Assembly: GCF_965363235.1 (NCBI RefSeq)
Contig: NC_134847.1
Location: 48,053,305 to 48,117,304, forward strand
Direction: 5' to 3'
Source of the DNA: Mytilus galloprovincialis
Taxonomy: Eukaryota > Mollusca > Bivalvia > Mytilida > Mytilidae
DNA length: 64,000 bases
This document shows positions 1 through 44,281 of the stretch, piece by piece. Within the stretch, counting starts at the first letter, position 1. Every line of letters starts with the position of its first letter. Made by a program: the position numbers and the translations under genes. The notes beneath the pieces were generated by a model. The model searched no databases. It had not been told where the DNA came from and saw only the letters and a program-made list of their open reading frames with translations.

Positions 1-411
1 AGAAAAACTAAAGACGAAGGGGAAGGCGGATTCCTGTTATTTTGTTCAATCGTTATTTTTGCAGTGTGTTTTTATGCTTTTATAACTTTTTCACTAGTAT
101 ACAGAATTTCAAGATTTTCTAAGGATGCTGACAACAGTAAGGCTGAATATAAAGTCTCAAAATATCAAAAGTTCATGATGGTATATAAATGTCTGGATGT
201 TATTTTCGACATTGAGGTGTTGCTTTATAGTTTCATTTTATCAGATTGGCAGTTAACAGCTTTTACTACCACGGCTGTTGCGGTGTTATGTACCGATATA
301 GTACTGAATGTAATTGTGGTAATGAAAAACTGTTGTTCCGACGAGGAAAAAAACAATGCATATCGTTCAAGTGAAACTAACCAAGCGTTTGAAAATCGAG
401 AAATAAAAGAG
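1..411 (+). CDS. Gene 1, internal exon: three transmembrane segments and start of cytoplasmic tail
   Basis: The frame is open from the first base to a GAG|GTAAGA donor at 411 (137 codons), so the true start lies upstream of the window; the GTG at 64 is only an internal codon. Residues 11-34 (FLLFCSIVIFAVCFYAF..), 64-81 and 85-108 (..VAVLCTDIVLNVIVVM) are hydrophobic membrane spans. A basic/polar loop separates the first two. A CC pair right after span 3 could be lipid-modified (inference). Residues 113-137 are acidic and polar, like the small exons downstream, so this is probably where the tail leaves the membrane. The exon ends in phase 0, matching the next exon at 1336. I do not recognise the family; it could be the end of a multi-pass receptor, channel or other membrane protein. 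Confidence 0.7.
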
Positions 412-968
412 GTAAGAATACATGTATTTAAAACATGTACTTTGTGTATTTGTTAGTTCGACTTTGCTGATTAATTCAAAACGTATTTAATATAGCCAAT
501 GTTTTAGTGATCACTATTTGTTTGCAATGTAAACCTCTGAATTTGTTCGTGTATTTGAGTCGTTTATATGCTTTTTATTGACTTTCAATCCTACGTTTTT
601 TAAAATCATTTGATAAACATAAATAGTGATATAATTTAGCCGGTCCTTAAGTCTTAGATTTGTTATTGTGAGATTAATTTCAATTCACGTACTCTAGTGT
701 ACGCGTATCGTTTTGTGCATACACTATTGACGTTCACATGCTAATTTTTACAGGTACACTTGAGGCACTCGTAACTGTTTGTTTGATCAGCGACATATAA
801 ACGCAACAGAAAACCTATCATCCTTTTTCATGAATTATGAATTTTCTGTGTTAACATCATTTCCTTATTCTCCAATCTCAAACTACTTTCAACAGAAGAA
901 TAAATGTCAGAAAAGGTATTAGTAAGGAAACATTCCCTTAACATGAATACAGATCAGTTGGTAGCCTT
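412..968. other. Gene 1 intron, nothing recognised
   Basis: AT-rich intron sequence following the donor at 412. I see no exon-like open frame and no repeat family in it. Confidence 0.5.
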
Positions 969-1040
969 CGGCTGTTGTCTGCTCTTTGGTCAAGATGTTG
1001 TCTTTTTGTCGCACTTCTCGTTTCCATTCTCAATTTTATC
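969..1040 (+). repeat. 3' tail of a bivalve interspersed retroelement
   Basis: This matches the end of the retroelement at 14100-14175 (GTTGTCTGCTCTWTGGTC.. then CCATTCTCAATTTTAT). Further tails of the same family lie at 16990-17062 (+), 32358-32460 (-), 55465-55550 (-) and 57655-57755 (-). Confidence 0.6.
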
Positions 1041-1335
1041 TAAAACTATAATAGGAAGAAACTTATAATATACGTGAAGGATGTATTTTGGATTAGGGAG
1101 ATAACTCAGGAAATAATGCTTAAAATTTGACAACAACCGACAACAAAACGACAAGTACTGTTGTCCATGTACAGTGTATAATATGGAATCCTTGTGAATA
1201 TGTAACAAGTATTTGCAACTGATGCTTCCATAATAATAATAATTAATAAATATGAGAATATTTAACGAGAGCCATTTCTCGACTAAAATCTTGATTTTGA
1301 CTAAAGTTATAATCATTTGTATGTGCATTTTGTAG

Positions 1336-1405
1336 GATGGATCGAATGCTATTCATCATTATATCATTCATCATGATTATAGAGAAGAAAGCGTGTCACG
1401 GGAAG
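1336..1405 (+). CDS. Gene 1 tail exon, B type (phase 0 to 1)
   Basis: TTTTGTAG acceptor, 70 nt, donor G|GTAAAT. It reads DGSNAIHHYIIHHDYREE then SVSRE, and enters in phase 0 as exon 1 requires. It leaves in phase 1, as the next exon at 16421 requires (G|AA = Glu). It is rich in His and Tyr and unlike the later B exons. It is followed by a 15-kb intron full of mobile elements. Confidence 0.55.
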
Positions 1406-1515
1406 GTAAATTGTGTAATATTCCAATTATAATGTTTTAACGTGTTATAAATGAGATGCAGTTAACAAGAAAATGAGACAACAAACTAACCCGAATGAAA
1501 AAATCCCATATAAAA

Positions 1516-1797
1516 CAAGAATGTGTCCATATTACACGGATACCCCACTCGCACTATAATTTTCTGTGTTCGGTGAACCGTAAAATTGGTATAAAACTCT
1601 TTTTTGGCATGAAAATTAGATTGATCACATTATAGAGAACATGTGTACTAAGTTTCAAGTTGTTCAGACTTCAACTTAATAAAAAAACTACCTTGACCAA
1701 AAATGTTAACTTGAAGCGGGACAGACGGAAGAACGAACGAAGGGACGTACAGACAAGGAAACATAATCCCCTCTCTATCGTAGGTGGGGCATGAAAA
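1516..1797 (+). repeat. Interspersed repeat family R1, copy 1
   Basis: About 280 bp running from 'aacaagaatgtgtcc' to 'gtaggtggggcatgaaaa'. Further copies in the same orientation lie at 7240-7560 and 32500-32780. All three share the internal text 'aacatgtgtactaagtttca' and a GGACRGACGG-rich end. I recognise it as a common bivalve repeat and see no coding capacity. Confidence 0.7.
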
Positions 1798-1904
1798 TAG
1801 GAAACATGTACAGGTTACACTATCATTAAAAAAGACAGAAAGATGTACGTCAATCAGTGAAGCTTAAAATCGCCACAAGTACAAAATTATTTAAACCCGA
1901 TCTT

Positions 1905-3070: not shown

Positions 3071-3378
3071 AGAGGATAACTCAGCTCTCACCAGTTAGTC
3101 TTAAAGGCTTTAATAACATCTTAATTGTCGACCCCGTTAAAGCTTTAGAATTGTGCTAGTTCATATCGCACATTATTATTTTTATTTAAAGCATATATTT
3201 GAACTCTCTGTTGTTATTAGACATATAACCTATGTCGTGTTTAACAAATTTTTAGACTTGTGCAAGCGCTTTACCTGATGTTCGGTTTGACTTTTTTATT
3301 GTATAAATTTCAAGATTGTAACAGCTTACTCTAAGTAGACTGATAAATGATTCATTCAACATCACAATCATATATATC

Positions 3379-3407
3379 GATGAAGGATATATGTTATCCG
3401 AAATATT
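3379..3407 (+). ncRNA. Hammerhead-like motif, 5' pseudo-LTR
   Basis: CGATGA, GGATA..TATCC stem, GAAATA. It corresponds to the motifs at 2013-2040 (-) and 6944-6973 (+), so each of the three pseudo-LTRs keeps one. The core departs from consensus CTGATGA, so activity is doubtful. Confidence 0.5.
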
Positions 3408-3561
3408 TATAAATAATTACATTTATAGTTCCTTTTTATGTTATTGGTGTTGTTGTGTATATTTTGTAGGCGTTTATATAATTTATTTTATTGTGTATAT
3501 GTAAAGTTACTTGTAACGATCCGTCGCCCTCGTGGGAAAATCGTTGACTATTATTCAGACG

Positions 3562-3563
<2 letters not shown>

Positions 3564-3632
<69 letters not shown>

Positions 3633-3740: not shown

Positions 3741-3782
3741 TAAAACTAACTATATATATATATATATATATAGTTAGTTTTA
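3741..3782. repeat. Short TA-core palindrome
   Basis: AAAACTAAC, a TA run, then GTTAGTTTT. This is a 42-bp perfect inverted repeat just before the coding part of the Penelope-like element. Confidence 0.7.
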
Positions 3783-6700
3783 AAGACTTCGCCACTTACA
3801 ACAGGCATAAAGTCAAACAGATTTTTACATAGACGGAACAATATTCTATACAACAGTTCCTTTAGCCTGATGAATCTTTTACGTCAAGAAGCAATTAATC
3901 AAGTTAATAATCTATATAAACTTAGTGATAACTTGCACTGCCGATATCGTGACCAATTATCTGGTCTTGAACTTGACGAAATTCAAGTACGGCTTAGTGA
4001 TATCAAACGTATTGAATCACATAAGCTTCACGTCAAGCAGATAAACAAATTTAAACGTGATGGTGTGAAAGTTACCACTCCTTTAAACAGACCTTCAAAA
4101 AATTATAGTAAAAAGCCTCGCAATCGTAGATTTCGAAGAAAAAAATCATATTACGGCCAATCCCAACAACACAGTTGTCAATTTGTCAACAGTCTCTTTG
4201 ACTGAGGATGAAACCAAAGTCTTATCTAAGGGTTTGAATTTTTGCCCTACTCCTAGTAACATAGATAATATGAAACTGGAAGATGACCTCAATAACTTTG
4301 CCAGAACCCTCAGAATTAAAGAATACTTTGGTAACAAGAACAAAGAGGAGGATAATGAGGAAGACACAGACACGTCCAACTCGGAAGACGAAATCATAAT
4401 TCCGCATTTTAAAAAGAAGAGTTCATGGATTCCAAAGCCCAGCAAATCTGCTACACTGGAAGATGTTATTGACAAAATCAAATCGGATGTTGTTCATCTA
4501 GCCAGCAACAAGTCCTCGTCGTTTTATAACACCTCTTCTGACGAGAAAAAAGCCATACAATAGCTGAAAAAACCGAGATGATATTGTTATAAAACCAGCA
4601 GACATGGGAAGTGCCGTTGTGATAATGGACAAAGCCGACTACATCGCGGAAGCAGAGCGTCAGCTCTCTGATGAGAGATTTTATAAGAAACTTGACTATG
4701 ACCCTACTTCCGAGTTTAGTTCCAAAATTATTACAGCGTTACAAACCATGCACGATGACGGTCACATAGATGAGGATACAATTGGATATTTAAAACCAGA
4801 GAACGCCAAGCCTGGTCGATTGTATCTTCTTCCTAAAATACACAAGGGTTAACAACCCTGGTAGACCCATTGTATCCGCTAACGGCTACCCGACTGAGAA
4901 AATCTCGGAATTTGTAGACTTTCATTTAAGATCTCATGTAGAAAATCTTCCTTCTCACATTCAAGACACTACAGATTATCTTCGCAAAATGGAATCCATG
5001 CACCCTCTTCCTCCGGAAACCCTCCTTGTCACTTTAGATGTCACCTCATTGTATACAAACATACCTCATGATGACGGAATACAATCGTGTAGGGAAATAT
5101 GGGACTCGCGCAACACTTTAGAACCACCTACCGAATGTTTAGTCCAGCTGCTTACTCTGGTCCTGAAATGCAACAATTTTACCTTTAATGGTAAGAATTA
5201 CCTTCAAATAAACGGGACAGCGATGGGGACGAAAATGGCACCGTCTTACGCCAATATTTTCATGGGCAAATTAGAGAAACAAATTATTTCAACATCTTTA
5301 ACCAAACCTCTGTCTTGGTTCCGTTTCATCGATGATTTTGACATGAAATGGATTGAATCCCAACAAAAATTGGATGCTTTTATCAGACATGCAAACAACG
5401 CCCACCAGTCAATTAAATTTACATATGAAATATCCGACTCTAAGATATCTTTCTTAGACACAGCTACATCTATAAAGGACGGTGTTATATCAACAGACCT
5501 TAACTGTAAACCTACAGATAAACATCAGTACCTTTCTCCCCAACGCTGTCACCCCAAACACTGTACAAAAAGTATCCCGTACAGTCAAGCTCTCAGAGTA
5601 AAGCGGATTTGCTCCTCTGAGGAGGCTGTCACTCAGCGGTTACAGGAACTTCGCGGATTTTTAATCAACCGAGGTTATAAGAAATGGGACATAGATAAGG
5701 GGTTTGTGCGTGCGAACAATATCAGCCGCAATGACCTGTTACAGTACAAAAAGAAGAGGTGCAGCAAAATAGTTCCAATTGTTTTAACATACAATCCCGC
5801 CTTTACTAACCTTTCACGTTTGATCCGTGCCAATTGGGAAAGTATTGCCAATCACCCAAAATTATCCAAAATCTTTCCCGATCCTCCTGTCTTAGCTTTT
5901 CGGAGACCAGCAAGTCTAAAAGACTTATTTGTGAAAGCTGCCGTCTCCTCTAATAAAAGCTGTTCAACTACAGGATGGTGCAAGTCATGTGGTAACAAAC
6001 GATGTCTGACTTGCCAACAAATACTGAATACTCAAACATTTACTTGTCACTCCACTGGGTCTGTGTTCACAATATTTTGTAATGTAACTTGCAAAACCCA
6101 GAATGTTGTATACATTCTTCAGTGTCGATGTGGCATGCAGTATGTTGGCGAGACAGAACAGCCATTCAACAAACGCATGAATGGTCATCGTAGTGACTAC
6201 ACCTGCAAGCCCGACCTCCCCGTAAGTCGTCTTTTAAGATCACATGGGCACGACAAAGCTGATCTAAAAAAAAACTTACCATCACCATCATAGATCACAA
6301 CGAGGATTGGTCAAAGACCGACATACTTGCTCGGGAAAGATTTTGGATAAGAAAGCTCAGTACAGTTTCCCCAGAGGGCATTAATGAAAAAAACATAGAA
6401 GAGTCACTCATTTTCCCTACCATCACTAACTTCCTGCCATCACCCGTGTTCAGTAACTCCGGCTTCCGTACTGGACACTTACACTTTTCAGGAATTTTTG
6501 AATTATACTAGTTTTAATTACAGTTGGCAGGGATGTGTAAATACACAGCCACGTTCTATTACTTAACCTAAGCAAAAAATTATTACTCATTTTTCTTTTT
6601 ATCTAATTACTATATATTTGAAATGTTTAAATACGCAGTCTCTTGCAATTTTTCTACCGCTGTCATATTTTAAATAGTATACCAGCGTAAATCGGTCAGG

Positions 6701-16420: not shown

Positions 16421-16518
16421 AACCAGATTTGGAAAGACTGCCACCTCAATCGGTTTCTTTATCTGATACTAGAGTAAACAGGAGGCCATATACAGAAACA
16501 GACCATCAGCAGAAAATG
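16421..16518 (+). CDS. Gene 1 tail exon, A type (phase 1 to 0)
   Basis: TTTATTTCAG acceptor, 98 nt, donor ATG|GTAGAT. With the G carried over from 1405 it reads EPDLERLPPQSVSLSDTRVN, then RRPYTETDHQQKM. The opening EPDLER matches ESDLER of the four array A exons, which supports both the splice site and common descent. Reading through the donor stays open for another 32 codons to a TAA at 16612-16614, so an unspliced form would have a different end. Confidence 0.65.
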
Positions 16519-17235: not shown

Positions 17236-17284
17236 TCACGCAGTGTCAGTTATGAAGTGCACGCTAGTTCAAAAGGAGAAGAAG
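17236..17284 (+). CDS. Gene 1 tail exon, B type (phase 0 to 1)
   Basis: AATTGTAG acceptor, 49 nt, donor G|GTGAAG. It reads SRSVSYEVHASSKGEE and then one carried base. Its length (1 modulo 3) and its phases fit between the A exons at 16421 and 20720. Polar and Ser-rich. Confidence 0.55.
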
Positions 17285-20719: not shown

Positions 20720-20751
20720 ATCCACAGGAAGGAATTCCGCAGAAGTTTTCG
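20720..20751 (+). CDS. Gene 1 tail micro-exon, A type (phase 1 to 0)
   Basis: ATTTTGTAG acceptor, only 32 nt, donor TCG|GTATGT. With the carried G it reads DPQEGIPQKFS. Length is 2 modulo 3 like every other A exon. It is too short to be certain alone; its phase and position between two B exons are the main support. Confidence 0.45.
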
Positions 20752-21512: not shown

Positions 21513-21579
21513 GATTCGTTTGATCATAATGATGAGTTTGACCAAAGAAAAACAACAGACAACACAGAAATCTACAATA
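21513..21579 (+). CDS. Gene 1 tail exon, B type, copy 1 of a duplicated exon
   Basis: TTTGTGTTAG acceptor, 67 nt, donor A|GTAAGT. It reads DSFDHNDEFDQRKTTDNTEI, then YN. It is very acidic. The exon and about 100 bp of the following intron recur at 22131-22300. Confidence 0.65.
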
Positions 21580-21987: not shown

Positions 21988-22079
21988 AATCGAAGAATGA
22001 CAGACCACCACCTTATTCTCAGGTAGTTAATGATACAAACAATACAGGCCATAACGTATCAGAAGAGATTAATCAAGAG
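21988..22079 (+). CDS. Gene 1 tail exon, A type, with PPPY motif
   Basis: ACTCAAG acceptor, 92 nt, donor GAG|GTATGC. With the A carried from 21579 it reads KSKNDRPPPYSQVVNDTNNT, then GHNVSEEINQE. DRPPPYS contains a PPxY motif, the known ligand of WW domains such as those of Nedd4-type ubiquitin ligases (general knowledge; a partner here is inference). An inner CAG|GTAGTT could act as an alternative donor just after the motif. Confidence 0.6.
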
Positions 22080-22130: not shown

Positions 22131-22197
22131 GATTCGTTTGATCATAATGATGAGTTTGACCAAAGAAAAACAACAGACAACACAGAAATCTACAATA
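22131..22197 (+). CDS. Gene 1 tail exon, B type, copy 2 of the duplicated exon
   Basis: Identical in sequence to the exon at 21513-21579, with acceptor GTATATAG and the same donor. Similarity continues to about 22300 with only a few changes, so the copy is recent. The next clear exon (22967) is also B type. Using both would break the frame unless an unseen A exon lies between them, so the two may be mutually exclusive. Confidence 0.55.
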
Positions 22198-22966: not shown

Positions 22967-23012
22967 AAATGTAAAGAAAAGTACGAGTCAAAAAAGAATA
23001 ACGAGAATAAAA
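22967..23012 (+). CDS. Gene 1 tail exon, array B1
   Basis: TATTTGTAG acceptor, 46 nt, donor A|GTAGGT (phase 0 to 1). It reads KCKEKYESKKNNENK. It differs from B2-B4 (KFKEKYESKRNNETK) by a Cys and other changes, and its donor is weaker than their GTAAGT/GTAAGC. Confidence 0.6.
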
Positions 23013-23501
23013 GTAGGTAGTTATTACATATATTTCTATTACTATACAAATTCTTCAACATCAGCTAACACGATCTCGACACTATGATCTAAACAGAAGT
23101 TAATCATTCGTTAATTGATTTTTTTTTCTCTTACAAGGTGATTTTGAAATAAACATCAATGCAATTGTTTGAACAAAGGTCTCAGATCTGTACTCAGTGT
23201 TCTGTTGTCACTGAGATGTATAATTACACAGCCATGTCAACTTTGTGCTTTTGTTAGATGTATTTCTATTTGTATTCATCTGATAAGGTAACCAATTGCA
23301 ACTGAACTGTTAACATCCACTTCATCTGAACTTTGATGGATGGTTGTCTTATTAGCAATCATAACACATCTCTTTATTTTTTATATGCTATTCAAATTGT
23401 ACAACAATGTTTTATTACTGAGTGTATGTAAGAACTATTGAAATTCCTAAATATGATATATTTTACACGATGCTGTTTTGATTATTTAATTCTATTACCA
23501 G

Positions 23502-23578
23502 AATCTGACCTGGAAAGAGACAACCTTTATTCCCTAGAATCCAGACCCAACAATAGACAAACAGACGACCAAGATGAA
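23502..23578 (+). CDS. Gene 1 tail exon, array A1
   Basis: TATTACCAG acceptor, 77 nt, donor GAA|GTACAT (phase 1 to 0). It reads SDLERDNLYSLESRPNNRQT, then DDQDE. The first residue is Glu or Lys depending on the base carried from the preceding exon. Reading through the donor stops after VHY. Confidence 0.65.
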
Positions 23579-23725
23579 GTACATTATTAGATTAAAGATA
23601 TTAATCGAGTTTAATATAATGATTGTATGATTTGTCATAAGGAAATGATGTGATATAGATGATTGCTACGTCTGAAATAAAAATAGCTTAGTCGATTAAC
23701 ATCTATATATAAGAAATATAGGCTG

Positions 23726-23943
23726 CAAAATAAAGGCAACAGTAGTATGCCGTTGTTCAAAACTCATAAATCCATGGACAAAAAACAAAATCGGGGTAAC
23801 AAACTAAAACTGGAGGAAACGCATTAAATATAAGAGGAGAACAACGACACAACATTAAAATGTAACACACACAGAAACGGACTAAGCATTAGACAAAATC
23901 CTATGAGAATAACAAATATAACATCAAAACCAAATACATACAA
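23726..23943 (+). repeat. Interspersed repeat family R4, array copy 1
   Basis: Begins 'aaaataaaggcaacagtagt'. It interrupts 'ataggctgca..acaaggtac', which is continuous at the unoccupied site at 22646-22660. Copies in the next units lie at 25848-26065 and 27980-28195. Independent copies lie at 41940-42190 and 43875-44000, with partial ends at 34975-35225 and 51180-51400. Confidence 0.7.
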
Positions 23944-23994
23944 ACAAGGTACCTATTGATGAATTGTTTTACATTAATATTCTAAACATAACAT

Positions 23995-24300
23995 GTTTAA
24001 CCCCGCCACATTGTTTATGTATGTGCCTGTCCCAAGTCAGGAGCCTGTAATTCAGTGGTTGTCGTTTCTTTATGTGTTACATATTTGTTTTTCGTTCATT
24101 TTTTTACATAAATAAGGCCGTTAGTTTTCTCGTTTGAATTGTTTTACATTGTCTTATCGGGGCCTATTAAAGCTGACTATGTGGTATGGGCTTTGCTCAT
24201 TGTTGAAGGCCGTACGTTGACCTATAGTTGTTAATGTCTGTTTCATTTTGGTCTTTTGTGGATAGTTGTCTCATTGGCAATCATACCACATCTTCTTTTT
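23995..24300 (-). repeat. SINE-like repeat family R5, array copy 1 (antisense)
   Basis: From 'gtttaaccccgccacattg' to 'ggcaatcataccacatctt'. Array copies lie at 26124-26430 and 28250-28555. Independent copies or fragments lie at 30100-30190 (-), 44513-44800 (+), 45480-45600 (-), 47620-47700 (-), 48783-48925 (+) and 57170-57265 (-). Absent from array unit 1. Confidence 0.7.
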
Positions 24301-24334
24301 TATATAACAAATATCTAATTAGTTATCAAAAGTA

Positions 24335-24845
24335 GCAGGATTATAATGTAATACGCCAGACGCTTGTTTCGTCTAAATAAGACTCACCAGTGACGCTCTG
24401 ACCAAAATAGTATAAAACCAAACCAGTACAAAGTTGACGAGCGTTGTAAACCAAAAATTCCCCAAAAATTGTGCCAAAAACGGCTAAGGTAATCTATTCC
24501 TGGGATAAGAAAATTCTTACTTTTCCGAAAAATTCAAAGTTTGGCAACAGCAAATTTTATAAAATGACCATATAATTGATATTCATGTCAACACAGAAGT
24601 GCTGACTACTGGGCTGGTGATACCCTCGAGGACGAAACGCCCACCAGCAGAGGTATCAGCCAAGTGGTGTAAATAGTTATCTAGGGTACCAGGATTATAA
24701 TTCAATACGCCAGACGCACGTATCGTCTACATAAGACTTATCAGTGACGCTCAGATCGAAATAATTATAAGGCCAAACAAGTACAAAGTTGAAGAGCATT
24801 CAACAGACTACCCAGTTTTGACGAGCATTCAAAAGCCTACTCAGT
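24335..24845 (-). mobile_element. Retrozyme dimer with two decayed hammerheads, array copy 1
   Basis: Two hammerhead regions on the minus strand (24353-24398 and 24706-24752) lie about 353 bp apart, as in a tandem retrozyme. Both have core changes: CTGGTGA with a disturbed stem III, and CTGATAA with GATAC for GAAAC. Array copies lie at 26464-26966 and 28590-29092. They share the decay, so they were multiplied by DNA duplication and not by new insertion. Confidence 0.65.
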
Positions 24846-25092
24846 TTTGACGTCTAATGAATACTGTTTTATGAAGTATTGTTAGTTTGTTTGTTTTCTT
24901 ATTTCGATCGCAAGATGTTGTTTTCTAACTTGCTAAACAAACTATAAAATAATTGAAATTTGAAGAGACGAAATATTGTATTTCTTCGATTTGTGATTAT
25001 GATTGCTTTTTGATTTTATCAGTGTAAATAATCTTAACATAACATGATTTTTTTTACAATGTTTTATGAGATATATTTTAATCTATTTGTAG

Positions 25093-25138
25093 AAATTTAA
25101 AGAAAAGTACGAGTCAAAAAGGAATAATGAAACTAAAA
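25093..25138 (+). CDS. Gene 1 tail exon, array B2
   Basis: ATTTGTAG acceptor, 46 nt, donor A|GTAAGT. It reads KFKEKYESKRNNETK, phase 0 to 1. Lys/Glu-rich and probably flexible. Confidence 0.62.
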
Positions 25139-25624
25139 GTAAGTAGTTATTACATATTTTTCTATCACTATGCAAATTCGTTAACAACAACCAATACGAT
25201 CTCGACATTATGCTCTAAGGAGAAGTAATTGATTCGTTAATTGATTTTTTTTTCTCTTACAAGGTGAGTTTGAAATAAACATCAATGCAATTGTTTGAAC
25301 AAAGGTCTCAGATCTGTACTCAGTGTTCTGTTGTCACTGAGATGTATAATTACACAGCCATGTCAACTTTGTGCTTTTGTTAGATGTATTTCTATTTGTA
25401 TTCATCTGATAAGGTAACCAATTGCAACTGAACTGTTAACATCCACTTCATCTGAACTTTGATGGATGGTTGTCTCATTAGCAATCATAACACATCTCTT
25501 TATTTTTTATATGCTATTCAAATTGTACAATGTTTTATTACTGAGTGTATGTAAGAACTATTGAAATTCCTAAATATGATATATTTTACACGATGCTGTT
25601 TTGATTATTTAATTCTATTACCAG

Positions 25625-25701
25625 AATCTGACCTGGAAAGAGACAACCTTTATTCCCTAGAATCCAGACCCAACAATAGACAAACAGACGACCAAGATGA
25701 G
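25625..25701 (+). CDS. Gene 1 tail exon, array A2
   Basis: TATTACCAG acceptor, 77 nt, donor GAG|GTACAT, phase 1 to 0. Same protein as A1 (DLERDNLYSLESRPNNRQTD). Confidence 0.65.
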
Positions 25702-25847
25702 GTACATTATTAGATTAAAGATGTTAATCGAGTTTAATATAATGATTGTATGATTTGGCATAAGGAAATAAGGTGATATAGATGATTACTACGTCTGAAA
25801 TAAAAATAGCTTAGTCGATTAACATCTATATATAAGAAATATAGGCT

Positions 25848-26966
25848 GCAAAATAAAGGCAACAGTAGTATGCCGCTGTTCAAAACTCACAAATCCATGG
25901 ACAAAAAACAAAATCGGGGTAACAAACTAAAACTGGAGGAAACGCATTAAATATAAGAGGAGAACAACGACACAACATTAAAATGTAACACAAACACACA
26001 CAGAAACGGAATAAGCATTAGACAAAATCCTATGAGAATAACAAATATAACATCAAAACCAAATACATGCAAACAAGGTACCTATTGATGAATTGTTTAA
26101 CATTAATATTCTAAACATAACATGTTTAACCCCGCCACATTGTTTATGTATGTGCCTGTCCCAAGTCAGGAGCCTGTAATTCAGTGGTTGTCGTTTCTTT
26201 ATGTGTTACATATTTGTTTTTCGTTCATTTTTTTACATAAATAAGGCCGTTAGTTTTCTCGTTTGAATTGTTTTACATTGTCTTATCGGGGCCTATTAAA
26301 GCTGACTATGTGGTATGGGCTTTGCTCATTGTTGAAGGCCGTACGTTGACCTATAGTTGTTAATGTCTGTTTCATTTTGGTCTTTTGTGGATAGTTGTCT
26401 CATTGGCAATCATACCACATCTTCTTTTTTATATAACAAATATCTAATTAGTTATCAAAAGTAGCAGGATTATAATGTAATACGCCAGACGCTTGTTTCG
26501 TCTAAATAAGACTCACCAGTGACGCTCTGACCAAAATAGTATAAAACCAAACCAGTACAAAGTTGACGAGCGTTGTAAACCAAAAATTCCCCAAAAATTG
26601 TGCCAAAAACGGCTAAGGTAATCTATTCCTGGGATAAGAAAATTCTTACTTTTCCGAAAAATTCAAAGTTTGGCAACATGAAATTTTATAAAATGACCAT
26701 ATAATTGATATTCATGTCAACACAGAAGTGCTGACTACTGGGCTGGTGATACCCTCGAGGACGAAACGCCCACCAGCAGAGGTATCAGCCAAGTGGTGTA
26801 AATAGTTATCTAGGGTACCAGGATTATAATTCAATACGCCAGACGCACGTATCGTCTACATAAGACTTACCAGTGACGCTCAGATCGAAATAATTATAAG
26901 GCCAAACAAGTACAAAGTTGAAGAGCATTCAACAGACTACCCAGTTTTGACGAGCATTCAAAAGCC
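25848..26966. repeat. Array copy 2 of the inserted block (R4, R5, retrozyme dimer)
   Basis: R4 at 25848-26065, R5 at 26124-26430 (-) and retrozyme dimer at 26464-26966 (-), with almost the same sequence as at 23726-24845. The second hammerhead core carries an extra change (CTGGTAA). Confidence 0.7.
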
Positions 26967-27222
26967 TACTCAGTTTTGACGTCTAATGAATACTGTTTTA
27001 TGAAGTATTGTTAGTTTGTTTGTTTTCTTATTTCGATCGCAAGATGTTGCTTTCTAACTTGCTAAACAAACAATAAAATAATTGAAATTTGAAGAGACGA
27101 AATATTGTATTTCTTCGATTTGTGATTATGATTGCTTTTTGATTTTATCAGTGTAAATAATCTTAACATAACATGATTTTTTTTTACAATGTTTTATGAG
27201 ATATATTTTAATCTATTTGTAG

Positions 27223-27268
27223 AAATTTAAAGAAAAGTACGAGTCAAAAAGGAATAATGAAACTAAAA
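27223..27268 (+). CDS. Gene 1 tail exon, array B3
   Basis: ATTTGTAG acceptor, 46 nt, donor A|GTAAGC. Same protein as B2. Confidence 0.62.
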
Positions 27269-27756
27269 GTAAGCAGTTATTACATATTTTTCTATCACTA
27301 TGCAAATTCGTTAACAACAACCAATACGATCTCGACATTATGCTCTAAGGATAAGTAATTGATTCGTTAATTGATTTTTTTTCTCTTACAAGGTGATTTT
27401 GAAATAAACATCAATGCAATTGTTTGAACAAAGGTCTCAGATCTGTACTCAGTGTTCTGTTGTCACTGAGATGTATAATTACACAGCCATGTCAACTTTG
27501 TGCTTTTGTTAGATGTATTTCTATTTGTATTCATCTGATAAGGTAACCAATTGCAACTGAACTGTTAACATCCACTTCATATGAACTTTGATGGATGGTT
27601 GTCTCATTAGCAATCATAACACATCTCTTTATTTTTTATATGCTATTCAAATTGTACAATAATGTTTTATTACTGAGTGTATGTAAGAACTATTGAAATT
27701 CCTAAATATGATATATTTTACACGATGCTGTTTTGATTATTTAATTCTATTACCAG

Positions 27757-27833
27757 AATCTGACCTGGAAAGAGACAACCTTTATTCCCTAGAATCCAGA
27801 CCCAACAATAGACAAACAGACGACCAAGATGAG
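27757..27833 (+). CDS. Gene 1 tail exon, array A3
   Basis: TATTACCAG acceptor, 77 nt, donor GAG|GTACAT. Same protein as A1 and A2. Read-through stops after VHN. Confidence 0.65.
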
Positions 27834-27979
27834 GTACATAATTAGATTAAAGATATTAATCGAGTTTAATATAATGATTGTATGATTTGGCATAAGGAAA
27901 TAAGGTGATATAGATGATTACTACGGCTGAAATAAAAATAGCTTAGTCGATTAACATCTATATATAAGAAATATAGGCT

Positions 27980-29092
27980 GCAAAATAAAGGCAACAGTAG
28001 TATGCCGCTGTTCAAAACTCATAAATCCATGGACAAAAAACAAAATCGGGGTAACAAACTAAAACTGGAGGAAACGCATTAAATATAAGAGGAGAACAAC
28101 GACACAACATTAAAATGTAACACACACAGAAACGGAATAAGCATTAGACAAAATCCTATGAGAATAACAAATATAACATCAAAACCAAATACATGCAAAC
28201 AAGGTACCTATTGATGAATTGTTTTACATTAATATTCTAAACATAACATGTTTAACCCCGCCACATTGTTTATGTATGTGCCTGTCCCAAGTCAGGAGCC
28301 TGTAATTCAGTGGTTGTCGTTTCTTTATGTGTTACATATTTGTTTTTCGTTCATTTTTTTACATAAATAAGGCCGTTAGTTTTCTCGTTTGAATTGTTTT
28401 ACATTGTCTTATCGGGGCCTATTAAAGCTGACTATGTGGTATGGGCTTTGATCATTGTTGAAGGCCGTACGTTGACCTATAGTTGTTAATGTCTGTTTCA
28501 TTTTGGTCTTTTGTGGATAGTTGTCTCATTGGCAATCATACCACATCTTCTTTTTTACATAACAAATATCTAATTAGTTATCAAATGTAGCAGGATTATA
28601 ATGTAATACGCCAGACGCTTGTTTCGTCTAAATAAGACTCACCAGTGACGCTCTGACCAAAGTAGTATAAAACCAAACCAGTACAAAGTTGACGAGCGTT
28701 GTAAACCAAAAATTCCCCAAACATTGTGCCAAATACGGCTAAGGTAATCTATTACTGGGATAAGAAAATTCTTACTTTTCCGAAAAATTCAAAGTTTGGC
28801 AACAGCAAATTTTATAAAATGACCATATAATTGATATTCATGTCAACACAGAAGTGCTGACTACTGGGTTGGTGATACCCTTGAGGACGAAACGCCCACC
28901 AGCAGAGGTATCAGCCAAGTGGTGTAAATAGTTATCTAGGGTACCAGGATTATAATTCAATACGCCAGACGCACGTATCGTCTACATAAGACTTATCAGT
29001 GACGCTCAGATCGAAATAATTAAAAGGCCAAACAAGTACAAAGTTGAAGAGCATTCAACAGACTAACCAGTTTTGACGAGCATTCAAAAGCC
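27980..29092. repeat. Array copy 3 of the inserted block (R4, R5, retrozyme dimer)
   Basis: R4 at 27980-28195, R5 at 28250-28555 (-) and retrozyme dimer at 28590-29092 (-), near-identical to the two earlier blocks. Confidence 0.7.
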
Positions 29093-29347
29093 TACTCAGT
29101 TTTGACGTTTACTGAATACTGTTTTATGAAGTATTGTTAGTTTGTTTGTTTTCTTATTTCGATCGCAAGATGTTGCTTTCTAACTTGCTAAACAAACAAC
29201 AAAATAATTGAAATTTGAAGAGACGAAATATTGTATTTCTTCGATTTGTGATTATGATTGCTTTTTGATTTTATCAGTGTAAATAATCTTAACATGACAT
29301 GATTTTGTTTACAATGTTTTATGAGATATATTTTAATCTATTTGTAG

Positions 29348-29393
29348 AAATTTAAAGAAAAGTACGAGTCAAAAAGGAATAATGAAACTAAAA
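29348..29393 (+). CDS. Gene 1 tail exon, array B4
   Basis: ATTTGTAG acceptor, 46 nt, donor A|GTAAGT. Same protein as B2 and B3. Confidence 0.62.
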
Positions 29394-29880
29394 GTAAGTA
29401 GTTATTACATATTTTTCTATCACTATGCAAATTCGTTAACAACAACCAATACGATCTCGACATTATACTCTAAGGAGAAGTAATTGATTTGTTAATTGAT
29501 TTTTTTCTCTTACAAGGTGATTTTGAAATAAACATCAATGCAATTGTTTGAACAAAGGTCTCAGATCTGTACTCAGTGTTCTGTTGTCACTGAGATGTAT
29601 AATTACACAGCCATGTCAACTTTGTGCTTTTGTTAGATATATTTCTATTTGTATTCATCTGATAAGGTAACCAATTGCAACTGAACTGTTAACATCCACT
29701 TCATATGAACTTTGATGGATGGTTGTCTCATTAGCAATCATAACACATCTCTTTATTTTTTATATGCTATTCAAATTGTACAATAATGTTTTATTACTGA
29801 GTGTATGTAAGAAGTATTGAAATTCCTAAATATGATATATTTTACACGATGCTGTCTTGATTATTTAATTCTATTTCCAG

Positions 29881-29957
29881 AATCTGACCTGGAAAGAGAC
29901 AACCTTTATTCCCTAGAATCCAGACCCAACAATCGACAAGCAGACGACCAAGATGAG
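29881..29957 (+). CDS. Gene 1 tail exon, array A4
   Basis: CTATTTCCAG acceptor, 77 nt, donor GAG|GTACAT. It reads SDLERDNLYSLESRPNNRQA, then DDQDE, with Ala for Thr relative to A1-A3. Reading through the donor stays open for 24 more codons (VHYKIKDINRVQYDDSMM..) to TGA at 30030-30032; in A1-A3 read-through stops within three codons. This copy could serve as an alternative last exon (inference). Confidence 0.62.
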
Positions 29958-30099
29958 GTACATTATAAAATTAAAGATATTAATCGAGTTCAATATGATG
30001 ATTCTATGATGTTTCATAAGATAAAAAGGTGATATGTATTCATTACTACATCTAAGACGATTATTTGTATTTCCAATCTGTTGATTGAAAGTAATCAAG

Positions 30100-30823: not shown

Positions 30824-30869
30824 GAAAATCAAGAAGAACATGAACAGAAAACGTGTATTGACACAAGGA
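30824..30869 (+). CDS. Gene 1 tail exon, B type (phase 0 to 1)
   Basis: TTGTCTAG acceptor, 46 nt (the same length as the array B exons), donor A|GTAAGT. It reads ENQEEHEQKTCIDTR. The EEH core recurs in the B exons at 37014 and 40994. Confidence 0.6.
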
Positions 30870-34674: not shown

Positions 34675-34751
34675 AATCAAACATAGAAAGCCGCAATCGT
34701 TATTCTAACGACCACAGAGGACCAAAAACTAGTGTTGATGTTGAAGAAGAG
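34675..34751 (+). CDS. Gene 1 tail exon, A type (older duplicate pair, copy 1)
   Basis: TATTTCTAG acceptor, 77 nt like the array A exons, donor GAG|GTACAT. It reads ESNIESRNRYSNDHRGPKTS, then VDVEEE. E-S-x-[LI]-E and NxYS are shared with the array A exons. Confidence 0.65.
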
Positions 34752-35264: not shown

Positions 35265-35630
35265 GATGCACGGTTTCCCCTGGGTTAATGGCCTGGGTCG
35301 ATGCCACTGCTGGTGGACGTTTCGTCCCCGAGGGTATCGCCAGCCCAGTAGTCAGCACTTCGACATGAATATCAATTATATGGTCATTTTTATAAATTTT
35401 CTGTTTACAAAACTTTGAATTTTTCGAAAAACTAAGGATTTTCTTACCCCAGGAGTAGATTACCTTAGCCGTATTTGGCACAACTTTTTGGAATTTTGGG
35501 TCCTCAATGCTCTTCAACTTTGTACTTGTTTGGCTTTTTAACTATTTTGATCTGAGCGTCACTGATGAGTCTTATGTAGACGAAACGCGCGTCTGGCGTA
35601 TAAATTTATAATCCTGGTACTTTTGATAAC
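35265..35630 (+). mobile_element. Retrozyme with intact hammerhead core
   Basis: A single unit of the family seen dimeric in the array, here with the ribozyme on the plus strand. The body carries a conserved 'ggacgtttcgtcc' hairpin (35315-35327) whose antisense strand also shows a GAAAC box. Retrozymes are non-autonomous retroelements that replicate through circular RNAs made by hammerhead ribozymes and are known from mussels. No coding capacity. Confidence 0.75.
35557..35603 (+). ncRNA. Type I hammerhead ribozyme, complete core
   Basis: CTGATGA (35562-35568) is followed by stem II GTC/GAC with loop TTATGTA, then GAAAC, then minimal stem III ACGC-GCGT. The predicted cleavage lies after the C of GCGTC (about 35593). 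Stem I forms between GCGTCA and TGGCGT. All invariant core bases are present, and the layout matches the hammerheads of newt satellites and animal retrozymes. Confidence 0.8.
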
Positions 35631-37013
35631 TATTAATTATTTTTTTCGCCACCTCTTTCGCCAAACAATATATTTTTCGCCACTTTATTTTTTTTATCGG
35701 CAAGTAACATAAATATATTTTTCGTTTAAAATTTACCTTTTTTCTACCCCCCTCCCTCCCTTAAAAAAGATGATTTTGTCCCATTGTGTCTATGATTATT
35801 CTCTCAAACTTATTTCAGAGTCTACATTTTAATGAATAAACACTACACATTTACTTTAAAACATCAGAATTTCTTTTAACTTAAAAGCTAGGGAAAAATA
35901 TTAATTGTTTTTTAAACAACTTTTCTAAATGAGGGGGCTGTATACTTTTAATAATAAAAAAGATATAAGTCCTGGAATATAACAAGTTAATGTTTTTTTT
36001 TATCATATAATACCAGTATAGTTCGTAGGGAAAGTTTCTTAAAAAGAAAAATACTGATGTGTCCTTTTGTACTGAGAAGTGGTTTTTACAACAAAACAAA
36101 AGCTTTTATCACATGAAATTAATCCCTCATTTCATGTGTAGTCATTACATTGAAGAGTTACTCTCATTCGAGAGGTTGTTCCCAACCTTTTGGATATATT
36201 TCGTCATAACGACAGTTTTTTTTTCTTGACCATCGTAAACAATGGTAAATGAAAAAGTTGAGACGTCAAACTATGCTTGAAACACGTGGGTCACTCAATC
36301 GACTTTAAAGTAGTTTCCCTCATCAATTACCTATATTAAAGTCAAAGAATAATTAAAGTTTTAAATCGGAGATTTTTTTTGCTTTTGAACATTTTTCGTC
36401 ACAACAACAGCTTTCTTTTCTAAACTGTCTTTAAAAAGGAGAGGAGACGTCAAAACGTTGCTTCAAACATGTGCGTCGTAAAGTGGTAAATAATTTCTGT
36501 ATGGGACATTTAACAGAAGCCATTTAACCATATCATTTTGTCAAACTCTTCAATAAACACCTTTATTAATTAGTCCTTTGTTGTCGATAGCTTTAAAAAT
36601 GCAATCAGCTGATTATTGATTTTCTGAGCTCAAGGTGAATTCCGAGTATTGTTTGATCGGGTAAAGTCCGAAAAACTCGAAAAAATTAAATAAACAAGAT
36701 GGAGAAAAATAAATCGATATATATAAATATATTTCTTTCGCCAAATTTTTTATCGCCACAATTTTTATTTTTTCGCAAATTGCGAAATCGTCTGCCAGCG
36801 GAAACCTTGGTTGGATGGCTACACTATTAGAACATAACAAGTATTGGAACAATCTGAATATACAAGTTTCCAATGCACGACCACGAATCAACGGTATGTC
36901 GAGATTTCATTCATTACATTTCATGGTTGTGCTCACATGACGACCTGGTGTCTTGAACAATGTCCAAGATTAATAGACTTCGATCAAAAGCTTTTTTTTT
37001 TTTAATTCTTTAG
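35631..37013. other. Intron sequence with repeated 'ttcgccac' text
   Basis: 'ttcgccac/ttcgccaaa' occurs at 35647-35690 and again at 36736-36770, suggesting remnants of one repeat family. No exon seen. Confidence 0.4.
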
Positions 37014-37059
37014 GATTATCTTGAAGAACATATTCCTGCAAGTACCAATGAGATACACC
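37014..37059 (+). CDS. Gene 1 tail exon, B type (older duplicate pair, copy 1)
   Basis: Pyrimidine-rich TTCTTTAG acceptor, 46 nt, donor C|GTAAGT. It reads DYLEEHIPASTNEIH. Closely related to the exon at 40994 (DIHEEHIPASPNEME). Confidence 0.65.
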
Positions 37060-37672: not shown

Positions 37673-37749
37673 AATCCAACATAGAAAGTGACAATCGTTA
37701 TTCTATAGAACCAAGAAGACCACAAAATGGTGTTGATGTTCACGAAGAG
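37673..37749 (+). CDS. Gene 1 tail exon, A type (older duplicate pair, copy 2)
   Basis: TATTTCTAG acceptor, 77 nt, donor GAG|GTACAT. It reads ESNIESDNRYSIEPRRPQNG, then VDVHEE. Paralogous to 34675-34751, including upstream intron sequence. Confidence 0.65.
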
Positions 37750-38246: not shown

Positions 38247-40216
38247 TTAATTACACCTTATGTAAGAATGCTGCATTTTGATTGGTTAAGAACCAGTGTA
38301 TTTTTTGCATATTCTAAACTTTTTTCTTCATTTCAAAAGAATTTGGCTTTTTTTTATCACTGCCGGTGAATTTGACGCAAATACCATGGTATTTGCCATT
38401 TTGGATATTCCTTTTTTACCCTCGCGAGCCTCTTCCCGCCAAATTATTCGGAACGTTTCTCTTCTTATCCCAATTATTAAGGCAACGTGATTAATCAATA
38501 TTGATTGATAGAGATATTCCGAATACTGTAAACAAAAATGTCAGCTCACACGGCTGCAGGCGGTCGTGGATTAGATAGATTTGGTACTGCTGAAGATGAA
38601 GATATCGATGATTTGATGAATGATGTGTTGGCAAATAACACTAAAAAGTCAACCAAGTTTGCAATAAAACTAGTTTATGACTATTGTGTGTCTAAAGGAA
38701 TAGATGCAAATATAGAGGACAGAAGCCCAGCCAGTTTAAATAATTTGTTAAAAGAATTTTATGTTAACATTCGCCAAGCAAATGGAGATTACTATTCTAG
38801 AAGCAGCTTTTGTGTAATTCGTCAATCTATTAATAGGCACCTAAAGCAGCCGCCGCACAACAAGCCCTTTGATGTAATAACTGATACTGCATTTACTACT
38901 GCAAACAACATCTTCAAAGCAATGTGCAAGAAACTTAGAAAGGAAGGAAAGGGACAAATTAAACATAAAAAATCTGTTGACAAAGGTGATATTAAGAAAC
39001 TGTATGAACATCCACGTACATTCAATGTTAATTCTCCTTCTGGACTATTGAACAAAGTGTGGTTCGAGGTTTTATTATATTTTTGCCGCCGGGGGCAAGA
39101 AAATCTCCGTGAAATGAAGCCACAAGACTTTAAAATTTCTAAAGATGATGAAGGGAAAGAATATGTACACAAAATTTCATCTGAAATGACAAAGAACCAC
39201 CAGGGAGTGGATGAAGAAGACTTTGAGCCGGAAGGGGGCAGAATGTATGCCACCGGAACCCCAATGTGTCCAGTTTTGTCTTTCAAAAAGTATCTAGATA
39301 AACTAAACCCAAACCAAACTGCATTTTGGCAGAGACCAAGAGATTCTTTTGATGAAGAGGATGAAATTTGGTATGAAAATAAACCCCTTGGGAAGAACAC
39401 TTTAGGAAATATGATGAAAAACATTTCAGAATCTGCAAATTTATGCAAATCATACACTAATCACTGTGTGCGAGCAACGTGTATAACTGTTCTTAGTGAT
39501 TCTGGATTTGAAGCCAGACATATTGTCACTATTTCAGGCCATAGGAATGAACAGAGTGTACAGAACTATGTTCGTGACACATCCACAGCGCAGAAGCGTG
39601 ACATGTCTGCTTCAATTTCGTCGTATACCGCTGCGAATTCAACTGCAAATTTAGATCAAAACAATAACAATGAAAATATAAATAATTCTGTTTTTGATGT
39701 CAATGAATCAGATTTAACTGAAGATCAGTGTGATGACATTTTTGAAAGTATTCAACAGGGAGAAGCTGAATTGCACCCTCTTTCGGACTTAACAAACATA
39801 AATCCACCAGCACAAACTACAAAATGTACTGCCACTACTGGGATGAATAAGCACCCTATCGTGTTTAATAACTGTAATGTTACCATTCACAATATTTCAT
39901 AAAATTCATGTTTTGAACATTTATAGTTGACACTGTTATTTTTCATGTTTCTGTTTGTATTACACATGGTATATTTATTTTATAAATATTTTACATAGTG
40001 TTTTAGTGAACAAAATTAAAAGTTTATCAATCTTGCACACTCAATTTATTCACATAAAATAGTTGTGGTATAATTCCTAATGAGATCATGTAATTATTTA
40101 CAAATGCAAATTATGCATAAACTTGTTTACAGATTACAGCTTACTACTAGTGGTAACAAAAGATTTCCTTTGACCTGTACAAACAGTTATAATCAAAATA
40201 GATTCGGTGTAATTAA
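38247..40216 (+). mobile_element. Crypton-type element (tyrosine recombinase) with short inverted ends
   Basis: The insert starts TTAATTACACC (38247-38257) and ends GGTGTAATTAA (40206-40216), a perfect 11-bp inverted match. The outer TTAA on each side could be a target duplication, leaving TTACACC inverted ends. Cryptons are generally described as lacking terminal inverted repeats, so this is either an unusual lineage or a recombinase gene inside another element type. An internal 'gcaaataccatggtatttgc' palindrome lies upstream of the gene. Confidence 0.65.
38538..39902 (+). CDS. Crypton-type tyrosine recombinase (DUF3504-like), intact
   Basis: A single 454-residue frame without introns. The N-terminal half (about 40-150) resembles the helical SAM-like DNA-binding part of tyrosine recombinases. 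The catalytic domain spans about 170-360. CRRGQENLREM carries the first Arg, and HCVRATCI gives the HxxR box. SGHRNEQSVQNYV gives the second His and the Tyr nucleophile. This arrangement is known from Crypton transposases and the host proteins descended from them (QRICH1, ZMYM and KCTD1 types). The C-terminal 100 residues are Asn/Asp-rich and probably disordered. ATG is preceded by AACAAAA, a reasonable start context. The intact frame implies a young copy or selection. A large antisense frame (38822-39457) is a shadow. Confidence 0.85.
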   Translation: MSAHTAAGGRGLDRFGTAEDEDIDDLMNDVLANNTKKSTKFAIKLVYDYCVSKGIDANIEDRSPASLNNLLKEFYVNIRQANGDYYSRSSFCVIRQSINRHLKQPPHNKPFDVITDTAFTTANNIFKAMCKKLRKEGKGQIKHKKSVDKGDIKKLYEHPRTFNVNSPSGLLNKVWFEVLLYFCRRGQENLREMKPQDFKISKDDEGKEYVHKISSEMTKNHQGVDEEDFEPEGGRMYATGTPMCPVLSFKKYLDKLNPNQTAFWQRPRDSFDEEDEIWYENKPLGKNTLGNMMKNISESANLCKSYTNHCVRATCITVLSDSGFEARHIVTISGHRNEQSVQNYVRDTSTAQKRDMSASISSYTAANSTANLDQNNNNENINNSVFDVNESDLTEDQCDDIFESIQQGEAELHPLSDLTNINPPAQTTKCTATTGMNKHPIVFNNCNVTIHNIS

Positions 40217-40360
40217 ACAGATATATCATGTTATGGAGGGGTATTTGCGAAAAATACCAGTCTTGGGACCAAATTTCCCTCGCCTAGCGGCTCGGGAAAT
40301 TTTACAGTCCCTTGACTGGTATTTTTCGCAAATACCCCTCCATAACATGATATATCTGTT
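40216..40360. repeat. Perfect foldback hairpin flush against the Crypton insert
   Basis: Arms 40216-40262 and 40314-40360 (AACAGATATATCATGTTATG.. mirrored by ..CATAACATGATATATCTGTT) are perfect over 47 bp. The 51-bp middle is itself partly palindromic (around CGCCTAGCGGCT). It lies exactly between the Crypton right end and the resumed R6 repeat, so it was inserted with or next to the Crypton. Confidence 0.85.
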
Positions 40361-40993: not shown

Positions 40994-41039
40994 GATATTC
41001 ATGAAGAACACATTCCTGCAAGTCCTAATGAGATGGAAA
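40994..41039 (+). CDS. Gene 1 tail exon, B type (older duplicate pair, copy 2)
   Basis: TTTTATAG acceptor, 46 nt, donor A|GTAAGT. It reads DIHEEHIPASPNEME. Leaves in phase 1, as required by the exon at 43258. Confidence 0.65.
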
Positions 41040-42900: not shown

Positions 42901-43257
42901 TTGGCCAACTTTGGAACGTTACTTTCAATATCATTAACTTGAAGTTCTTTCATCGAAAGTGTCACCGACGTCATAAGGTTGACCATTATCGACATATGAG
43001 TTACAGTTGATTCAGTGTTGTTCATACGACTGTAGATATTGTAGCTAAAATCCAGGTCTTTGATCCTACGGAGAAAATTTACAATTTACATCTATTTACT
43101 GCCAAGTACACATATTTGGTCTGAATTTAATCCTGTACTTGTCATATTTATCTTGATATTAGTGCAAACTGTAATTTGAAAGTGTTTCCTGATATCTGCA
43201 TAAATCGTAAATGGTTTCCTTACTCAATGAATTTGAAATATTGTAATGTATTAATAG
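42901..43257. other. Intron sequence, nothing recognised
   Basis: AT-rich DNA before the acceptor at 43257. Confidence 0.4.
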
Positions 43258-43364
43258 CTATTGAAGATTCATCGGACTATTGTGAACCGATGGAAATAGA
43301 AAACTCTTCTGATGATGTCCAAGAAACAGTTGCAACGTCCGATTTTAATTCATCATCAGATTGG
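43258..43364 (+). CDS. Gene 1 tail exon, A type, acidic/Ser-rich
   Basis: TATTAATAG acceptor, 107 nt, donor TGG|GTAACA, phase 1 to 0. It reads IEDSSDYCEPMEIENSSDDV, then QETVATSDFNSSSDW after the joining codon. Clusters of Ser followed by Asp/Glu look like casein-kinase-2-type sites (inference). Reading through the donor ends after nine codons at TAA 43392-43394, so it could also be a last exon. Confidence 0.55.
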
Positions 43365-43707
43365 GTAACATTTTATACTAATTATACATCATAAAGCGAT
43401 CAACCATTCTTGAGAAATGACGAAACCTTAAAAAAATACACGCTTATGAATCTATGTTACTAGATAAATATGTAATATAAATGATGGCACAAGAAAAGTT
43501 ACATGAAAATCTTATCAGTAATAAAACAAAAATACGATTTAGCATGAAATGTAAACAAGTTTGATGTGATTGTGAGATGTTTTGATATTTTCAATTTCTA
43601 ATTTGCAATTCATGAAATGTAAACGTTACATAATCATAATAATCTTTGATTATTGAAAGGTTTTTGTTTTCTTTATTTCAATTAAAAAATGTGTTATGCA
43701 TATTCAG

Positions 43708-43734
43708 GACAACAATCTTCATCGAAACGATGTT
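43708..43734 (+). CDS. Gene 1 possible micro-exon or alternative last exon
   Basis: CATATTCAG acceptor. It reads DNNLHRNDV with donor GTT|GTAAAA (phase 0 to 0). If not spliced there, the frame continues through a Lys-rich stretch to TAA at about 43809. Weak donor, so the call is tentative. Confidence 0.35.
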
Positions 43735-43874
43735 GTAAAAATAAGTTTTCAAGAGAAGAAGAAAAAAGTCGCAATTTTAGCGGTTGTTGAGTTAACAAAA
43801 GGGGATTAAAATATTATTTTGATTTTATAATGATTGATCACTATGAAAGCCATGCTGAATGATGATCTTTAAAT

Positions 43875-44000
43875 AAAGGCAACAGTAGTATACCGCTGTT
43901 CGAATTCATAAATCGATAGAGAAAAAAACAAATCCGAATTACAAACCAAAACCGAGGGAAACGCATCAAATGTAAGAGAACCAAAACTTGGAAAAAAAAA
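43875..44000 (+). repeat. Interspersed repeat family R4, partial copy
   Basis: 'aataaaggcaacagtagtat' through 'agggaaacgcatcaaatgta'. Confidence 0.6.
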
Positions 44001-44215
44001 AAAAAAAAGAGTTATTGAACATGCACAAATACATAAACTATGTGTTGACAGTTTTTTTTCATTGATGAATTTAAATGCCTCTGGTTTGACATATTTCACA
44101 TTTCCTTTATTGAAAGTTTAAGAATAAACAATATCCAAAGGTTTATGCAGCATATAAACCATGCGAATTAAATTAAGCCGTTAGTGTTATAATGCTTCCG
44201 TCATTTTACTTCCAG

Positions 44216-44281
44216 GTCGAACCCGAAGAAAAAATTCGTGATGCAATTACAAAAAGCCATATTGAGGATTGTGAAGTGTAG
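44216..44281 (+). CDS. Gene 1 terminal exon
   Basis: TTACTTCCAG acceptor, then VEPEEKIRDAITKSHIEDCE, V and TAG. It enters in phase 0, compatible with both 43364 and 43734. The partial duplicate at 42297 shows this was a functional unit that was copied. Confidence 0.6.
   Translation, partial: VEPEEKIRDAITKSHIEDCEV

Follow-up and report, generated by a model that had tools for sequence, protein, structure and literature searches.

The cytoplasmic tail of PECAM-1 illustrates how a receptor tail can be divided into small exons: it is encoded by several short, alternatively spliced exons, which are not known to form a repeated pair array. We analyzed a 64-kb window of the Mytilus galloprovincialis genome (contig NC_134847.1, forward-strand positions 48,053,305 to 48,117,304; positions below are those of the window), which contains the 3' part of a putative membrane-protein gene whose tail is split among alternating micro-exons. 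Tandem exon duplication as such is well known (PMC9013439). Homologous short exons tandemly duplicated in one gene are described, as at the mussel locus, for mutually exclusive exon arrays (PMC9013439) such as those of Dscam (PMC3364881) and insect Mhc (PMC2257972), and many very short coding exons likewise for schistosome micro-exon genes (MEGs), where an exon duplication is linked with a transposon (PMC8293314). A further parallel is obscurin, named beside titin and nebulin in PMC9013439. Such giant muscle proteins have lengthened in modules by tandem exon duplication.

A first-pass annotation had described a membrane exon followed by ten A and eleven B exons. We re-derived all of these segments from the sequence, where A denotes an exon running from phase 1 to phase 0 and B an exon running from phase 0 to phase 1. 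All 21 were present, preceded by AG, followed by GT and open in the given phase. The length rules proposed for them also held, A exons measuring 32-107 nt (all 2 modulo 3) and B exons 46-70 nt (all 1 modulo 3). The observed order, BABABABBABABABABABABA, alternates as described, with the B3 copy at 22131 as the one exception. Each A+B pair thus adds whole codons, and the figure of 41 per pair given for the array was recovered in 12 of the 19 adjacent pairs of the chain, including every adjacent pair between B4 and B10. The features are listed below; B4 to B7, A5 to A9, B9 and B10 were identified by phase, borders and motif scan.

1-411, plus strand: membrane exon, identified by its open frame, donor and hydropathy; open at the window start, ends in phase 0, donor GAG/gtaaga (6.6)
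1336-1405, plus strand: B1, 70 nt, phase 0 to 1, without motif similarity to any other B exon
16421-16518, plus strand: A1, 98 nt, PDLERLPPQS, weak donor (0.1)
17236-17284, plus strand: B2, 49 nt, similarity weak
20720-20751, plus strand: A2, 32 nt, similarity weak
21513-21579, plus strand: B3, 67 nt, similarity weak
21988-22079, plus strand: A3, 92 nt, contains PPPYSQV, no rival site as good (0/6011)
22131-22197, plus strand: B3 copy, exon identical to B3, acceptor -2.3, 51 nt after A3, probably dead
22967-23012, plus strand: B4, 46 nt, KCKEKYESKKNNENK
23502-23578, plus strand: A4, 77 nt, SDLERDNLYSLES, weakened donor GAA/gt (-2.4)
25093-25138, plus strand: B5, 46 nt
25625-25701, plus strand: A5, 77 nt
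27223-27268, plus strand: B6, 46 nt
27757-27833, plus strand: A6, 77 nt
29348-29393, plus strand: B7, 46 nt
29881-29957, plus strand: A7, 77 nt
30824-30869, plus strand: B8, 46 nt, with a truncated, acceptor-less copy downstream from about 30941
34675-34751, plus strand: A8, 77 nt, SNIESRNRYS
37014-37059, plus strand: B9, 46 nt, DYLEEHIPASTNEIH
37673-37749, plus strand: A9, 77 nt, SNIESDNRYS
40994-41039, plus strand: B10, 46 nt, DIHEEHIPASPNEME
43258-43364, plus strand: A10, 107 nt, acidic, without motif similarity to any other A exon, acceptor -1.0, donor -0.3
44216-44281, plus strand: terminal exon, phase 0, VEPEEKIRDAITKSHIEDCEV followed by a stop, acceptor 6.2
43708-43809, plus strand: possible alternative terminal exon, phase 0, DNNLHRNDVVKISFQEKKKKVAILAVVELTKGD followed by a stop, acceptor 0.8
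23140-30010 (ends approximate), plus strand: recent tandem array of about 2.1-kb units with one A and one B exon each

Joining the membrane exon, 20 A/B exons (the B3 copy omitted) and the terminal exon gave a 22-exon reading frame of 1776 nt without an internal stop, that is, 592 codons with the stop counted; the tail accounts for 454 residues. The terminal exon continues phase 0 after A10, and position 44281, where the first-pass annotation had ended, is the end of its stop codon. Both anchors of the chain are strong (membrane-exon donor 6.6, terminal acceptor 6.2), and among the splice sites of the 21 A/B segments only the A7 acceptor (6.2) matches them.

The phases lock this frame. Skipping any single one of the 20 exons led to a stop 2-45 residues further on (20 of 20 cases, the stop for A10 falling in the terminal exon), so that splicing of single exons as cassettes is unlikely. 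Loss or gain of an A+B pair left the frame unshifted, so that pair duplication is harmless to it. The frame therefore admits only whole-pair changes.

To compare the exons with chance, we scored the first 10 codons (A) or 12 codons (B) of each exon against the other exons, with its own close copies excluded. Rival scores came from 6011 AG sites on both strands with the same phase imposed and known exons excluded as rivals. No rival was as good as A3, A4, A8 or A9 (0/6011 each), and 12 sites scored as well as A1. Among B exons the rivals numbered 3 for B8, 10 for B5, 12 for B4, 30 for B9 and 70 for B10. The near-identical copies A5, A6, A7, the B3 copy, B6 and B7 were not ranked separately. When both strands were scanned with an A profile, the top eight matches were eight of the ten A exons, with scores of at least 16.7 (six of the eight belonged to the reference set of the profile). 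The next best scored 10.5, far lower, so no further A copy is seen in the window. The claim that motifs are shared within each class is thus clear for the core module of 77-nt A and 46-nt B exons, which is clearly repeated as judged from the sequence, but similarity is weak or absent in five outer exons.

We also counted candidate exons in 1-44300 against 15 shuffles of that segment and five control phase classes, with an optional hydrophilicity filter. With the filter and a splice score of at least 2.5, there were 9 A candidates (shuffle mean 0.3) and 6 B candidates (0.1), against 0-1 in the control classes; at score 0 there were 15 (0.7) and 7 (0.5), against 0-4. Without the filter, a score of 2.5 gave 22 A (8.1) and 19 B (4.8), and the control class from phase 2 to 0 was high too, at 17 (3.9). 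At score 0 without the filter, B candidates numbered 28 on the plus and 27 on the minus strand.

How the array grew can be read from its repeats. Four copies of an approximately 2.1-kb A/B unit lie in tandem at a spacing of 2115-2132 nt, the fourth being partial. Divergence among the three full units, with cuts at 23140, 25266 and 27395, is only 0.94%, 1.55% and 1.41%, so the expansion is recent. Copy 1 matches the rest at 85-93% over about 22.8-23.18 kb (100-column bins) and, beyond about 23.18 kb, matches copies 2 and 3 mostly at 97-100%, with one bin at 93-94%. Copy 4 is down to 78% beyond about 29.96 kb and reaches background further on, ending just past A7. We read this pattern as the probable result of unequal crossing-over in which two older units took part. 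A8 and A9, whose exons are 81% identical, and B9 and B10 (84%) represent an older round of duplication. The earlier proposal of tandem exon-pair duplication is therefore well supported for frame-neutral pairs by the unit copies, the phases and the open join. Separately, a repeat occurs at 24316-24779, 26445-26908 and 28571-29034, with two copies per unit in the first three recent units, and in inverted orientation at 35388-35634 (35.4-35.6 kb). It is possible fuel for unequal crossing-over.

Two small duplications that do not comprise a whole pair have a poor acceptor or none. The B3 copy lies within a duplication of about 175 nt that starts at the acceptor TAG; the original pyrimidine tract is absent, the acceptor scores -2.3 and the upstream intron would be 51 nt. 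The copy at 30941 is without any acceptor. The B3 copy, and with it the B-B exception, is most simply a dead fragment, probably.

At the protein level, the membrane exon extends past the window start and only part of the protein lies in the window. It had been described as containing three transmembrane segments; two hydrophobic segments are clear but the third is weaker (19-residue hydropathy peaks of 2.61, 2.14 and 1.49). A K/R-rich loop behind the first membrane segment suggests that this side is inside. A cytoplasmic location of the tail, as proposed, is plausible: its highest 19-residue hydropathy is -0.57, without a hydrophobic segment, and its 454 residues include 116 D+E and 68 K+R. 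There are 18 tyrosines, two per module in units with KEKYESK, where the B exon supplies the second. S-x-x-D/E opens seven of the ten A exons, and nine of the ten contain a tyrosine. In the motifs first reported as ESDLER, EPDLER and ESNIES, the leading E has to be corrected, as its codon had borrowed an intronic G. After splicing, the first codon reads AAA (K) where a KEKYESK exon precedes it, GAA (E) after B1 and CAA (Q) after B9, and ESDLER thus becomes KSDLER.

The description "receptor-like" found no support: searches gave neither a Pfam family above its cut-off nor a solved relative or a match in fold. The best Pfam match of the membrane exon was EphA2_TM (E 0.049; 14.8 bits, cut-off 28.9), and its best match among solved structures (E 0.098) was not a convincing relative. 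A single-sequence structure model of this exon was of low confidence (mean predicted local distance difference test score, pLDDT, 60.8), and Foldseek returned nothing below E 5 for it and seven matches up to E 10. Up to E 0.1, Pfam gave nothing for the joined gene model, and 195 residues of the tail matched no solved structure below E 0.22. Viral and prokaryotic contigs scanned with the membrane exon, and plasmids scanned with 23000-26000, yielded no relative, nor did such scans reveal a copy of a mussel-like repeat of the window; Rfam and tRNA searches gave no match. XK-related membrane proteins were considered on account of the look of the membrane segments. That family was not among the matches of the membrane exon, which covers part of the protein, at E up to 1, nor at E up to 10 under HMMER filters that drop weak matches. 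The tail contained no immunoreceptor tyrosine-based inhibitory motif (ITIM), no NPxY, one Y-x-x-hydrophobic and one PPxY. With a single Y-x-x-hydrophobic, no pair forming an immunoreceptor tyrosine-based activation motif (ITAM) is possible. The tail thus does not resemble that of a cell-surface signalling receptor with ITIM, ITAM or NPxY motifs.

Taken together, we think it probable that the locus is the 3' part of an integral-membrane-protein gene with a polar, probably disordered, cytoplasmic tail that grows by frame-neutral exon-pair duplication. In the predicted transcript, alternating phase-0/1 and phase-1/0 micro-exons would code for the tail, each alone shifting the frame and an A+B pair being neutral. 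Unequal crossing-over between repeat-bearing introns would duplicate a pair and, with the frame unharmed, lengthen the tail by exactly one module, which in the core means 41 residues. All functional pairs would most likely be included constitutively, and the tail would consist of short linear motifs (S-x-x-D/E and tyrosines) repeated in series, with its valency set by copy number.

Several results weigh against this explanation. In the motif ranking, 152 and 1456 of the 6011 rival sites scored as well as A2 and A10, and 149, 308 and 1262 as well as B2, B3 and B1; these five exons rest mainly on splice borders and frame, being exon-like with weak or absent homology. After copies were collapsed (hydrophilicity filter, score 0, 30 shuffles), the A list came to 3 distinct exon families, where the shuffles averaged 1.33 and reached at most 4 (the script gives 8 by counting nested acceptors). 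The B list came to 4, one of them nested in A1 out of frame, against 0.93 and a maximum of 3. Because the excess above chance shrinks in this way, the support comes from homology and copy number, not from many independent families. Splice sites are poor at the A1 donor (0.1), the A4 donor (-2.4) and both ends of A10 (-1.0 and -0.3), and intron 2 would span 15,015 nt and contain a transposon. Protein-level constraint between older copies is also weak. The proportions of nonsynonymous (pN) and synonymous (pS) differences were 0.20 and 0.20 for A8/A9, where 1111 of 2000 random placements had no more nonsynonymous changes than observed, and 0.19 and 0.26 for B9/B10 (991 of 2000). Among four further comparisons, only A7/A9, at 81 of 2000, was suggestive; the remaining three gave 187, 253 and 296. 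Exon-only conservation is not clean either, since near flanks are above background too: A8 and A9 are 81% identical in the exon and 78% over the 60 nt upstream, with a random floor of 66%. Between A families, exon DNA is near that floor (A7/A8 62%, A7/A9 69%), so that similarity there is at the protein level only.

Some of these results fit neutral growth, a real possibility to which we give somewhat less than even weight. By that account, intronic repeats drive duplication through the same growth mechanism, the phase of the pair merely makes duplication tolerable, and tail length has no function. The near equality of pN and pS in older duplicates, the repeats common to the introns of the units and the presence of broken partial copies all speak for it. 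It accounts less well for the intact frame and AG/GT borders in 21 of 21 segments, and for motif positions (S-D/N-L/I-E, then Y-S) that are kept between A families despite near-saturated synonymous sites (pS about 0.65; one of two comparisons suggestive).

Alternative splicing, in which subsets of exon pairs are picked to give many tails from one gene, would replace only the constitutive-inclusion step, and we regard it as unlikely. Were every donor free to splice to every acceptor further on, 10,946 subsets of the exons would keep the frame; splice-site strengths vary, and there is a possible second terminal exon at 43708. Set against this, single exons are no cassettes, as all 20 skips give an early stop, and two exons must drop together. 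Decay of the gene, with some array members being pseudo-exons that are no longer spliced, is improbable: the poor splice sites of A1, A4, A10 and the B3 copy and the truncated copy at 30941 point that way, but 22 exons join without an internal stop. Misassembled alleles, which the divergence of about 1-1.5%, within the range of allelic differences in bivalves, would allow, are a very improbable source of the four near-identical units, as these lie head-to-tail at 2115-2132 nt with their own substitutions and gaps, the outer breakpoints of copies 1 and 4 differ, and older duplicates elsewhere in the gene are unaffected.

If frame-neutral pair duplication with constitutive inclusion is correct, the locus would be a natural case in which intron phase decides evolvability, with single exons frozen and pairs free to multiply. 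With units about 1% apart, individuals may well vary in copy number, and tail valency could then be related directly to phenotype. More tentatively, and with considerable doubt on our part, the phase-locked two-exon module may act as a genetic ratchet: as neither exon could be gained, lost or skipped by itself, the signalling tail of a membrane protein would vary only in whole 41-residue steps; alleles would differ by unequal crossing-over, transcripts possibly by paired skipping, and individuals would obtain different valencies. The locus is also a warning for gene prediction, as exons of 46 and 77 nt in repeat-bearing introns could easily be missed.

Other features were noted in the window. 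In the 15-kb intron after B1, 3774-6293 contains open frames in which Pfam identifies a reverse transcriptase domain (RVT_1, E 2.2e-9, within 4794-6293) and which have, by eye, a GIY-YIG-like end, as in Penelope-like elements. Two inverted arms of 355 nt, 93% complementary, lie close by at 1948-2302 and 3114-3468. In the intron between A9 and B10, 38532-39902 is an open frame of 456 residues that matches DUF3504 (E 9.2e-14) and phage-integrase domains (E 2.2e-8) and resembles a tyrosine-recombinase element. It is followed at about 40216-40360 by an imperfect palindrome, noticed by eye (54 of 75 positions match ungapped). On the minus strand of 47500-51000, exon-like pieces read, by eye, as a stretch resembling leucine-rich repeats, a piece carrying two N-glycosylation sequons, and one membrane helix. 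A Pfam search found nothing here, and the pieces may belong to a neighbouring single-pass protein encoded in the other orientation. Between 52001 and 54000, GC content is raised to 0.406; the minus strand has open frames of 174 and 128 residues there, and 80 bp are duplicated exactly in tandem at 53127-53284. A 44-bp satellite of 12 copies (94% matches) occupies 61823-62350.

Our literature search, in which most subscription papers lay outside the searched sources, recognised no phase-locked exon-pair array in a membrane-protein tail. Compared with the systems introduced above, the core has homologous exons head-to-tail in one gene and on one strand, as in tandem exon duplication; in the outer exons such homology is weak or absent. 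As in mutually exclusive arrays, one duplicate could swap for another with the frame kept, all A exons running from phase 1 to 0 and all B exons from 0 to 1. In those arrays (PMC9013439; PMC3364881; PMC2257972), however, one exon each is chosen, whereas the mussel unit is an asymmetric pair and its frame needs both exons or neither, and a path that takes in all 20 A/B exons is open as well. The exons of MEGs are mainly ≤36 bp, symmetric and individually droppable (PMC8293314). The mussel exons are 32-107 nt and asymmetric; none of the 21 A/B lengths is divisible by three, and only A2, at 32 nt, falls within that size (1 of 21). Unlike the giant muscle proteins, the mussel case is a polar membrane-protein tail growing by a two-exon module. 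What differs from known tandem exon duplication is that no single exon is symmetric and the pair is the unit.

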